The notes under the pieces are model-generated. The model was given only the letters and a program-made list of their open reading frames with translations, was not told the DNA's origin and did no database searches. A DNA stretch of 64,000 bases, from NCBI GenBank assembly GCA_013298595.1, contig JAAFIG010000021.1, positions 1-64,000 on the forward strand, given 5' to 3'. Positions 7,242 to 63,366 of this stretch are shown piece after piece. How positions within the stretch are numbered: the first letter of the stretch is position 1; every line of letters starts with the position of its first letter. This DNA is from Deinococcales bacterium (lineage in GTDB: Bacteria; Deinococcota; Deinococci; Deinococcales; JAAFIG01). Both the position numbers and the translations under genes were made by a program.

Positions 7242-8096
7242 CTACACGTCCCAGTAGGTCAACGCAACCCCATTTGGTCGCACCAAACTCGAGAATTTCT
7301 CCAAACCTGCTTTATCAGGTAACTCGAGATGATAACGAAAATTCCATAAGTAATGCTGCACAATTCGCTCTGGTAAACCAAGCCGAGCTGCTTCAAGCGA
7401 CGCAATATCCGATAAATGCCCAAGTCCAGAACGCCGCGCTCGACGCATAGAAAGCACCAAATCAAGTGATGGCGGATGGTCGGCTCGGGTTGCCCACACG
7501 GCAAAAACAAATGGCATGCCCGTATGTACAAACCAAGACATGGCTAAATCTGTGACTTCAACATCCTGACCACTCGAGAGTTTGCCACGATTCGGCAAGC
7601 GAAACATCTGCGTTGTCTCAGAAATCGGACCACACAACCGGTACCACTCCGACAATGCCCCATCGCCAATCAGCAACACCGCAGGGTATTTTTGCAACAA
7701 AAGCTCGAGATTTGGTTCTTCACGCACCAACGTTGCCTCGATCCCATCGAGTTTTAACAATGTCTCGAGCAATTTGACACTGGTCGCTGAATGTGTCGTC
7801 ACCGCAATGGTTTTACCTTGCAATTCCGCCCAAGGCACGGTGTGAAAAAGTGCCACGCTATACACCGCGCCTAATACTGAAATCGAAAAATCAGGTAATG
7901 CCCGCAATTTATCTGCATTTTCAATAAACTCAAACGCCGAAATATTTGCCACATCCACCCGCCCCTCGAGCAAAGCCGAGTTAATCTCGGTTGGAACCCC
8001 ACGAAACCAAGAAATATCCTGACCAACCAACTCAGTCTCGAGCGAATGCAAAAGCGGAGCAACATTGGTATACCCAATAATTCCCAAGCGAGTCAT
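7242..8096 (-). CDS. mqnA: Menaquinone biosynthesis protein MqnA (chorismate dehydratase)
   Basis: MqnA dehydrates chorismate to 3-[(1-carboxyvinyl)oxy]benzoate, the first step of the futalosine route to menaquinone. The start (R-L-G-I-I-G-Y-T-N-V-A-P-L) matches the family, as do the periplasmic-binding-like fold and the length of 284 residues. No other mqn gene is in the window. A TAGACT box ends 6 bp before the ATG, which points to a leaderless mRNA. The gene is divergent from deoB. Confidence 0.9.
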   Translation of the reverse strand: MTRLGIIGYTNVAPLLHSLETELVGQDISWFRGVPTEINSALLEGRVDVANISAFEFIENADKLRALPDFSISVLGAVYSVALFHTVPWAELQGKTIAVTTHSATSVKLLETLLKLDGIEATLVREEPNLELLLQKYPAVLLIGDGALSEWYRLCGPISETTQMFRLPNRGKLSSGQDVEVTDLAMSWFVHTGMPFVFAVWATRADHPPSLDLVLSMRRARRSGLGHLSDIASLEAARLGLPERIVQHYLWNFRYHLELPDKAGLEKFSSLVRPNGVALTYWDV

Positions 8097-55912: not shown

Positions 55913-57256
<1,344 letters not shown>

Positions 57257-59437: not shown

Positions 59438-60322
59438 ATGCCTTGGCTCGAGAACCGTTCAATTTCGGCAACAGCGACAACGGCATTCGATGCGTTTTTG
59501 CATGATTTCAATGCAAAGCTATCGGATGCAAGTACAAATCGCGCTGAATTATGTCGTGAATTACTCGCCGAGTTCTTGTATGCCAGTTCGTATGCCGATC
59601 TCGAGGCTCGTTTGCCTTTGGTGGCTTTGAATCTCGATCCGAACAATGTTTTACTCGAGGCAGAGCATTATCAGCCGCTGGATCACACTAAATTTGCTCG
59701 AGTCAAACCGCTTTTATGGCTTTGGTATAATTTTGACACTAGCCCAGCCGCCCAGAATTTAGCCTTTGGTATTGCGTTTCGCCGAGTTTTAGCTCAGCAT
59801 ATTTTTGCCCACTGTGGACAGAACATTAAAATTTTTCCTGGCGTGCAGTTTAGTGTTGGCTATAATGTCTCGGCTGGTGATGATGTGGTGATTCATCGCA
59901 ATGTGCTGATTGATGATATTGGTGGCGTAACGCTGCATAATCATGTTTCAATTTCCGACTATGCCAATATTTACAGCCATACCCACAGCCCACTCGAGCC
60001 TAATGATGTAACTTTAAAGCATACAACCATTGGGGCTGGAGTCAGAATTACCTACCATGCCACAGTCTTAGCAGGTAGCACCATTTCCGATGACAGTATC
60101 GTTGGCACCATGAGTATTGTGACTAAGGATATCGAACCGCATGTGATTGCTTATGGTATTCCAGCTAAACCCATGCGTGAAAAGTTGCGTCCGCCAATGC
60201 CAATTGTGGTTGACTCAAGGGTTTTTGTGCACCCAGAAGACCGTCAGGGCAATCCAGATTACCCAACGGCAGGAACAAATAATGCCACGAAAGCATTAAA
60301 AACCCTCAGTATTAGCCGTTAA
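59438..60322 (+). CDS. Hexapeptide-repeat acyltransferase
   Basis: The 294-residue protein has an N-terminal helical region of about 130 residues and then a left-handed beta-helix with hexapeptide repeats (V-S-A-G-D-D-V-V-I, I-S-D-Y-A-N-I-Y-S-H-T-H, I-S-D-D-S-I-V-G). The H-T-H stretch and Y-G-I-P-A-K-P match the maltose/nodulation-type O-acetyltransferases. The acceptor is unknown. TAAACT lies 7 bp before the ATG. The aminotransferase gene follows in the same direction. Confidence 0.85.
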   Translation: MPWLENRSISATATTAFDAFLHDFNAKLSDASTNRAELCRELLAEFLYASSYADLEARLPLVALNLDPNNVLLEAEHYQPLDHTKFARVKPLLWLWYNFDTSPAAQNLAFGIAFRRVLAQHIFAHCGQNIKIFPGVQFSVGYNVSAGDDVVIHRNVLIDDIGGVTLHNHVSISDYANIYSHTHSPLEPNDVTLKHTTIGAGVRITYHATVLAGSTISDDSIVGTMSIVTKDIEPHVIAYGIPAKPMREKLRPPMPIVVDSRVFVHPEDRQGNPDYPTAGTNNATKALKTLSISR

Positions 60323-60369
60323 CAAACAGTTTATTTTGGGGCGGGGTTCCGTTTTGCCGTTTTCTCGAG

Positions 60370-60375
60370 TAGACT
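60370..60375 (+). promoter_or_regulatory. TAGACT -10 box of a leaderless promoter for a leader peptide
   Basis: TAGACT ends 6 bp before the ATG at 60382, which begins a 23-codon frame. It fits the pattern of other starts in the window. Confidence 0.5.
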
Positions 60376-60381
60376 CTTTTC

Positions 60382-60453
60382 ATGAGGTCACTGCGGTTAA
60401 GCGCTGGATTTAGTGGCACAAGCGGCTCTACCGATCCGCCTTGTGTATTCTAA
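60382..60453 (+). CDS. Possible leader peptide overlapping an attenuator hairpin
   Basis: The 23-residue frame (M-R-S-L-R-L-S-A-G-F-S, then P-C-V-F) is rich in serine, glycine and threonine. Its promoter box is 6 bp upstream and its stop lies in the right arm of the hairpin at 60407-60456. Such an arrangement could let ribosome speed control read-through into the aminotransferase gene. It is inferred only from the sequence; the peptide may have no function of its own. Confidence 0.4.
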   Translation: MRSLRLSAGFSGTSGSTDPPCVF

Positions 60454-60465
60454 ATCGTTTTTCGT
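60407..60465 (+). terminator. Long hairpin with T-run, possible attenuator
   Basis: GATTTAG (60407-60413) pairs with CTAAATC (60450-60456), and CACAAGCGG (60417-60425) pairs with CCG-C-CTTGTG, leaving a small internal loop. GTTTTT follows. It is either the terminator of the acyltransferase gene or an attenuator of the next gene, 60 bp downstream. Confidence 0.6.
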
Positions 60466-60519
60466 GTTGCTTAACAATCTTTTTTAGCTCGAGCTAATCT
60501 CGAGCCGTGGGGTGAATTC

Positions 60520-61812
60520 ATGAATTCAAATTTTTCTTTACCAAATCAGAAATCCAAAGCCATTCTCGAGCGGTATGCCAGTTCGATGAGTACATCTAAT
60601 GCTGTTTCTTTTCCAATGGTTATTTCGCATGGCGAAGGTTGCTGGTTAACAGATGTGGATGGCAATAAATACTTAGATATGATGGCTGGAATTGCTGTTA
60701 ATACCACTGGTTATGCCCATCCTGCGGTGGTTAAGGCGGTGCAAGAACAAGCTGCTAAAGTGCAACACTTATGCTTTGCTGTTTTTGCCTCCGAACCACA
60801 AGTGGCATTAGCCGAACGCTTAAAAAAGCATGTTGGACAAGATTATCGTGTTTTCTTTGGCAATAGTGGCACCGAAGGTATCGAAGCGGCTATGAAATTA
60901 GCCCGTTACCACACCAAACGCCCTTATTTTATTGCTTTTACAGGTAGTTTTCATGGTCGTAGCATGGGTGCTCTGAGTTTAACCGCCAGTGTTTCCAAGT
61001 ACCGTAAAGGGTTTGGTAATCTTGTTCCAGGTGTTTTTCATGCACCTTACCCGCAACCATATAAGTACCCGCGCACTGCCGAGATGGTTCTCGAGCATCT
61101 CGAGTTTTTGTTTAAGCACACCACTCCACCCGAAGAAGTAGCTGGTATTTTTGTTGAACCCATCCAAGGCGAAGGTGGGTATATTGTGCCACCTGCTGGT
61201 TTTATGCAGGATTTACGCAGTATTTGCGATAAGCATGGCATTTTATTGGTCGCTGATGAAGTCCAAACAGGGGTTGGACGCACTGGGCAATTCTTAGCTT
61301 CGGAGTTTGATAATGTTCAACCAGACATTGTGGTACTAGCAAAAGGGCTTGCCAGTGGTTACCCGATTAGTGCAGTCATGTTCAAAGAACACATTTCGAC
61401 ATGGGGTGCAGGCGCACACGGCACAACCTTTGGTGGTAATCCTGTCTCGAGTGCCGCTGCACTTGCTACCCTTGATATTCTCGAGAATGGTGCGATGGAA
61501 AATGCTCGAGTACAAGGCGAGTACTTATTAGGTCGGATGCGGGCATTACAAGCTCGAGTACCACAATTAGGTGATGTGCGTGGACGTGGATTGATGATTG
61601 GTTTAGAGTTTGTCAAAGACCCTGTATCTAAGCTCGAGCATCCAGAGTTACGTGACCGTGTGCAGCAACTGGGTTTAGAGCATGGTTTAATTTTACTTGG
61701 GGCTGGCAGTCATGCTATTCGTTTGGCACCACCACTGGTTTTAACAACCGAGGATGCCAAATATGCAGCCGATACTTTAGAAAAAATTATTCTTGAAGCA
61801 GCAAGCCACTAG
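60520..61812 (+). CDS. Class III (acetylornithine/4-aminobutyrate-type) aminotransferase
   Basis: The 430-residue PLP enzyme has G-N-S-G-T-E-G near residue 108, F-H-G-R near 142, D-E-V-Q-T-G near 247 and the PLP lysine in L-A-K-G near 275. The family includes acetylornithine, ornithine and GABA aminotransferases, and racemase-like members that cannot be told apart here. GGGGTGA lies 6-7 bp before the ATG. A possible attenuator precedes it and a strong terminator follows. Confidence 0.9.
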   Translation: MNSNFSLPNQKSKAILERYASSMSTSNAVSFPMVISHGEGCWLTDVDGNKYLDMMAGIAVNTTGYAHPAVVKAVQEQAAKVQHLCFAVFASEPQVALAERLKKHVGQDYRVFFGNSGTEGIEAAMKLARYHTKRPYFIAFTGSFHGRSMGALSLTASVSKYRKGFGNLVPGVFHAPYPQPYKYPRTAEMVLEHLEFLFKHTTPPEEVAGIFVEPIQGEGGYIVPPAGFMQDLRSICDKHGILLVADEVQTGVGRTGQFLASEFDNVQPDIVVLAKGLASGYPISAVMFKEHISTWGAGAHGTTFGGNPVSSAAALATLDILENGAMENARVQGEYLLGRMRALQARVPQLGDVRGRGLMIGLEFVKDPVSKLEHPELRDRVQQLGLEHGLILLGAGSHAIRLAPPLVLTTEDAKYAADTLEKIILEAASH

Positions 61813-63057: not shown

Positions 63058-63366
63058 GTTTGCATTACAATTTTAAGATGCAGCTGTCACTCGAGATTTC
63101 GAGAATACTACTCACCTACAATCTCTAGGCAACGTGTTTTCAATTACCTCAGGGCAAAAAGTATAACAACTGCAATCGAATGCAGTTGTTATGGGTTGTT
63201 ATTTAACCTGCCTGACACATTTTAATGTGTAAGATACTCCTATGTGCGCTTTTCCACATCGCGTGTAAAATGCGTGTGCAATTTGCACACTGTTCTTGTT
63301 CAAAGCCTGATAGCGTATGCTAATAGAGATACGTTCTCAATTCCAAGTTTCAACCCGAGGTATTTC
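63058..63366. other. Intergenic region with several palindromes
   Basis: ATAACAACTGCA and TGCAGTTGTTAT (63163-63192) form a perfect 12-bp hairpin that probably terminates the previous gene. ACACATTTTAATGTGT (63215-63230) is a 16-bp palindrome. GTGTGCAA-T-TTGCACAC (63274-63290) is a 17-bp palindrome. The last two may be regulatory sites for the response-regulator gene. No gene is visible. Confidence 0.6.

Follow-up and report, generated by a model that had tools for sequence, protein, structure and literature searches.

A probable leader-peptide regulatory element before a putative ornithine aminotransferase gene in an uncultured Deinococcota lineage

Several described systems control a gene through the translation of a short leader peptide ahead of it. 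In attenuators of the trp/his type, a leader peptide overlaps a hairpin and the gene behind it serves the pathway of the sensed amino acid, while in translation attenuators of the ErmCL type a leader ORF is combined with a masked downstream ribosome-binding site. In a further group the nascent chain itself is conserved and arrests the ribosome at termination: arrest of TnaC occurs at proline and responds to tryptophan, and SpeFL senses ornithine (PMC8429421). Finally, mgtP (the mgtCBR leader) and mgtL (the mgtA leader) of Salmonella are short leader ORFs that contain consecutive proline codons and act on the next gene through the decoding of these codons; in mgtP, two such codons in a row are enough for proline limitation to be sensed (PMC3641672).

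The leader described here lies between a hexapeptide-type acetyltransferase gene directly upstream (59438-60322) and a class-III aminotransferase gene of 430 residues, within the window, i.e. the whole 64 kb stretch of DNA that was analysed. If the enzyme feeds proline, the arrangement resembles the trp/his type, but no antiterminator common to the two species carrying the leader was found, the hairpin overlaps most of the leader frame and the T-run is weak. The consecutive proline codons recall mgtP and mgtL, but those leaders control Mg2+/virulence genes and not proline synthesis, and have alternative stem-loops of which none was found here; in addition, residues outside the Pro codons are conserved in the present leader, and its start is expected to be leaderless. 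Like TnaC and SpeFL it has a conserved nascent chain, with a presumed arrest at proline as in TnaC, and the ligand of SpeFL is the substrate of the probable enzyme; here, however, Pro-Pro stands 3-8 codons before the stop. Compared with the ErmCL type, the masking arm is the extreme 5′ end of a leaderless message, and in the model the downstream site stays masked when a ribosome stands where the pause is presumed. A search of one literature collection returned no paper joining proline biosynthesis, a leader peptide, attenuation and ornithine.

Leader frame, promoter and RNA fold

The original prediction described a TAGACT box, a 23-codon frame and a long hairpin with a T-run as a transcription attenuator. 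All three are present at the positions given there, and the stop codon (60451-60453) does fall inside the right arm of the hairpin (60407-60456). That hairpin is real and conserved, but it is only the inner part of a larger predicted fold, in which the ribosome-binding site of the aminotransferase gene is included as well; the full element, as modelled, is longer than first described and extends from 60370 to about 60521, its outer helix reaching the aminotransferase start region. Its features and those flanking it are as follows, with the equivalents in a related species (G001):

60340..60358, plus strand: weak terminator-like hairpin closing the acetyltransferase unit; equivalent at the same place in G001, AAGCCC...GGGCTT followed by ACTTTTT
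60370..60375, plus strand: -10 element TAGACT, 6 nt before the leader ATG; TACAAT in G001; leaderless start expected
60382..60453, plus strand: leader ORF, 23 codons and a stop, MRSLRLSAGFSGTSGSTDPPCVF; 18 of 20 residues kept in G001, with 13 third-position changes
60382..60395, plus strand: P1 left arm, formed by the first leader codons, predicted to pair with 60508-60521; same columns in G001, with an A-U to G-C double change at column 9; significance modest
60396..60404, plus strand: P2 left arm, predicted to pair with 60466-60475; A-U to G-C double change at column 19
60407..60428, plus strand: P3 left arm (the hairpin described first); double changes at columns 27, 30 and 36
60433..60441, plus strand: Asp-Pro-Pro (GAT CCG CCT), the last conserved codons and presumed pause site; nucleotide-identical in G001
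60433..60456, plus strand: P3 right arm, holding the Asp-Pro-Pro codons and the leader stop codon; predicted in both species
60458..60462, plus strand: T-run after P3; its tail scores 2.46, and the terminator behind the aminotransferase gene reaches 4.85
60466..60475, plus strand: P2 right arm; predicted in both species
60480..60485, plus strand: second T-run, after P2; CTCTTTTC in G001
60487..60505, plus strand: P4, a predicted hairpin formed from two CTCGAG copies, possibly incidental
60509..60515, plus strand: Shine-Dalgarno sequence GGGGTGA of the aminotransferase gene, paired in P1; AGGCGGT in G001
60520..61812, plus strand: probable ornithine delta-aminotransferase gene, class III; 561.4 bits against NF004426, cut-off 552

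The related species, known from a Deinococcales metagenome bin (contig JAAFJQ010000012.1), is the only other member of the genus in the comparison and has the same gene order. Since the leader is known from these two species only, all of the comparative evidence amounts to one comparison. The frame at the same place in the relative reads MRSLRLGAGFSGTSGSIDPPVIPLLLRF before its stop, and the two peptides share the consensus MRSLRLxAGFSGTSGSxDPP. More specifically, the first 20 codons differ at 15 nucleotides, 13 of them in third positions, giving 11 synonymous and 2 non-synonymous codon changes; within codons 2-17, third positions differ in 13 of 16. When the same substitutions were placed at random 200,000 times, no placement gave so few amino-acid changes (P below 5e-6), and the constraint is as strong as that on the enzyme itself (88% identity, 49% third-position divergence). 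Judged by this substitution pattern, the leader peptide is under selection. Immediately after Pro20 the two peptides diverge, and GAT CCG CCT, whose consecutive proline codons are present in both ORFs, is the sole run of three degenerate codons that has not changed at all (P 0.02).

Conservation of the amino-acid sequence would also be expected of a small stable protein with a function of its own that merely lies beside the aminotransferase gene. This is very unlikely, as the product would have only 23-28 residues with a C-terminus that is not conserved, its coding region lies within a hairpin that is itself under selection, and 111 genomes of the phylum contained no other copy of the peptide. 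A scan by sequence pattern over 84,980 species returned the related species and, beyond it, 15 frames that lack the MRSLRL start. Orthologues of the aminotransferase at 60% identity have no leader, and in another genome of the same bacterial family (G003) the acetyltransferase gene is kept, the next gene is a different one and the leader is absent. The T-box, riboswitches and other Rfam RNAs were rejected as candidates, one tRNA being the only match at gathering score in the window and the region itself giving only a chance match of 14.6 bits.

Upstream of the frame, the -10 element of the relative stands 7 nt before the leader ATG, and in both species a weak terminator-like hairpin precedes the box. 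The leader is thus expected, from this context, to have its own leaderless-type promoter, separate from the acetyltransferase unit. A hairpin with a T-run 84 bases after the acetyltransferase gene might otherwise be taken for the mere terminator of that gene, with the ORF as a chance frame; but the frame is conserved by synonymous change, and a -10 element and another terminator-like hairpin come before it in both species, so that synonymous conservation and a separate promoter rule this explanation out for practical purposes and we give it next to no credence. Boxes of the form TANNNT lie 4-9 nt before the start (mode 6) at 21 of the 41 gene starts examined in the window, against 9.7% of all ATGs, which suggests that about half of the window's genes are leaderless (examples are the starts at 8096, 20934, 23442 (minus strand) and 30001 (plus strand)). 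Leaderless messages are also common in Deinococcus deserti (PMC9031893). The aminotransferase gene itself has no TANNNT box at its start and has a Shine-Dalgarno site. Many of its orthologues in other families have no leader and are themselves of the leaderless type, TAGACT standing 6-8 nt ahead of the gene's own ATG, and the leader therefore seems to have been added, in this genus, between the promoter and the gene.

The RNA fold was assessed against several null models. Between leader start and aminotransferase start, folding z-scores against dinucleotide shuffles are -3.5 here and -3.4 in the relative, and the minimum-energy folds of the two species, computed independently, follow the same plan, i.e. 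an outer P1, a long P2/P3 hairpin and P4. The leader hairpin (60407-60456) has a predicted energy of -20.4 kcal/mol and is followed by GTTTTTCG; when the same peptide was re-coded with synonymous codons drawn at each species' own usage, its stability was matched by 2 of 2000 re-codings here and by 11 of 2000 in the relative. In the first 47 columns, which are free of gaps, seven differences fall at columns paired in both species and all seven keep a standard pair, five of these changes being two-sided (columns 9, 19, 27, 30 and 36). An equal sharing of P1 and P2/P3 columns was found in 2 of 1500 null sequences, while P1 alone is less secure (54 of 1500 in the same null). The modelled hairpin is thus under selection beyond what the peptide needs. 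The original prediction had proposed alignment with relatives as its check, and both frame and stem are kept in the relative, so that a leader-peptide regulator is well supported. With a conserved peptide and a selected fold, we are confident that this is a real cis-acting leader-peptide regulatory element.

P4 may be incidental, because CTCGAG is strongly over-represented across the window. It occurs 407 times in 64 kb against 6 expected, within and between genes, and stretches from two other genera of the family (G003 and G002) have it at 20 to 30 times the expected frequency, making it a HIP1-like palindrome in Deinococcota. One further CTCGAG hairpin (56949-56968) stands upstream of a minus-strand gene at 55913-56917, named by eye as ketol-acid reductoisomerase (ilvC). 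Elsewhere in the window, an intergenic inverted repeat of 13 pairs at 63162-63193 (TATAACAACTGCAATCGAATGCAGTTGTTATG) is terminator-like on both strands.

The aminotransferase and the proline pathway

The product of the downstream gene passes the NCBIfam equivalog model NF004426, with a score of 561.4 against the cut-off of 552. Its best solved relative is 7vno, which we take to be PH1423 of Pyrococcus horikoshii and which scores 702 with the same model; the alanine/serine racemase PH0782 (presumably entry 9wqz) scores 511, below the cut-off. Raw phmmer scores of 7vno and the racemase are near each other (353 and 345 bits), and for this reason the assignment as an ornithine delta-aminotransferase is probable and not certain. 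PH1423 is listed as an ornithine delta-aminotransferase (PMC9986279), and the reference list of that paper includes a study by its title giving the Thermococcus homologue TK2101 as needed for growth without proline (Zheng 2018, as listed in PMC9986279).

Neither proB nor proA was found in any of the four genomes of the bacterial family (G000-G003, 91-94% complete), and proC was found in all genomes searched, these four included. The same proB/proA searches matched in each of the 14 controls, 12 of them above the cut-off, and found both genes in three sampled genomes of other families. Since proB and proA are absent and proC is present, an ornithine aminotransferase would supply the substrate of ProC, and the two conserved proline codons probably precede a gene that makes proline. 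Ornithine might also be converted to proline without this enzyme, as a cyclodeaminase-family protein exists, although it is over no specific model's cut-off; in the relative its gene directly follows one with a threonine dehydratase-like product (judged by eye), which suggests catabolism. G003 has neither the cyclodeaminase family nor a close orthologue of the aminotransferase. In the genome to which the window belongs, the stretch ahead of proC was examined for a proline leader and none was seen.

The peptide is rich in Ser, Gly and Thr, and these had been proposed as the signal. This part of the original prediction is probably wrong, because Asp-Pro-Pro is exactly where conservation ends, the enzyme is a member of the PH1423 family, and the genomes have proC without proB and proA; conservation edge and pathway both point to Pro-Pro. 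The Ser, Gly and Thr residues are indeed conserved, but so are the rest.

Ribosome position, signal and readout

The peptide, the fold, the promoter context, the enzyme family and the absence of proB/proA were all read from sequence; from them we infer a pause, its signal and a readout by termination or translation. Our preferred reading, which on balance we favour, is a ribosome-controlled attenuator in which the ribosome pauses at Pro-Pro and senses either the supply of proline or, via the nascent chain, a metabolite such as ornithine. The strength of its parts differs: (i) control through the position of the ribosome on the leader is likely, (ii) Pro-Pro is somewhat favoured as the pause site and (iii) proline as the signal is tentative.

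In this attenuator, RNA polymerase would start at, or 1-2 bases from, the A of the leader ATG, so that the leader would be translated leaderless. The ORF runs through both arms of the long P2/P3 hairpin, and its first codons are predicted to pair with the aminotransferase ribosome-binding site (P1). A translating ribosome would hold P3 open, while the free RNA would close P3 and P1, with lower expression as the result. A pause at Asp-Pro-Pro, aided by the conserved nascent chain above it and caused by a shortage of prolyl-tRNA or by a metabolite read by that chain, would keep the hairpin open and thus lead to more of the probable ornithine aminotransferase and to proline supply. At codons 18-20 the ribosome would cover about nucleotides 38-71 of the message, a position that excludes the full P3 helix. 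Should transcription terminate at P3 or P2/P3, the pause would give readthrough, and with plentiful proline the ribosome would exit at the stop and the hairpin could form.

The claim of transcription attenuation stands as far as a leader-peptide regulator is concerned, but termination is no more than a possible readout, given modest T-runs, an A+U-rich stem base and the lack of an antiterminator. Specifically, the tail scores of the leader hairpins are 2.46, 1.16 and 1.66, against 4.85 and 5.23 for terminators after the gene; the stem base is A+U-rich compared with those terminators; the stem is stable in both species, but the hairpin of the relative has no good T-run; and folding with a ribosome placed at each codon yielded no mutually exclusive antiterminator common to both.

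A rival explanation is translational coupling that needs no pause: P1 would hide the ribosome-binding site, any ribosome that starts on the leader would open it, and leader initiation would set the output of enzyme. P1 is predicted on the same columns in both species with one double change, and in the folding model a ribosome over codons 1-4, and over these first codons only, makes the site cheaper to open in either species. Masking alone, however, is not significant, either against synonymous re-coding (equalled by 53 of 400 and 54 of 400) or against the ribosome-binding sites of other genes of the relative, as some foreign sites pair equally well, and conservation through codon 20 would be left unexplained. 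We therefore consider coupling of this kind unlikely. For the preferred attenuator, a ribosome modelled at Pro19/Pro20 leaves the Shine-Dalgarno site masked, i.e. unmasking was not reproduced by folding.

A sharper form of the preferred reading, compatible with it, is a metabolite-sensing arrest peptide, in which the enzyme would be induced when the nascent chain and a ligand, for example ornithine, arrest the ribosome at Pro-Pro. Residues 2-16 are kept despite heavily diverged third positions, which plain starvation attenuators and codon-only sensing do not require; their conservation, unexplained by codon counting, suggests a role for the nascent chain like that in TnaC or SpeFL. In addition, the 18 identical residues of 20 extend up to Pro20, so that conservation stops at the presumed arrest point, and an ornithine-sensing arrest peptide is already known (PMC8429421). 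On the other hand, the arrest is putative, and pairing in P1/P2 places a constraint of its own on the N-terminal codons. We regard this form as possible but doubtful. Equally speculative is a fuller version, which starts from the loss of proB/proA in an uncultured Deinococcota lineage: ornithine aminotransferase would be the way into proline synthesis, under the control of a leaderless-initiated arrest peptide of new sequence that responds to proline or ornithine and whose first codons double as a mask of the downstream ribosome-binding site.

If the preferred reading is true, it would (i) add an attenuator of the proline pathway, (ii) provide a leader-peptide regulator with a leaderless start, and thereby show a route to attenuation in phyla that are rich in leaderless messages, and (iii) offer a short new candidate arrest sequence.
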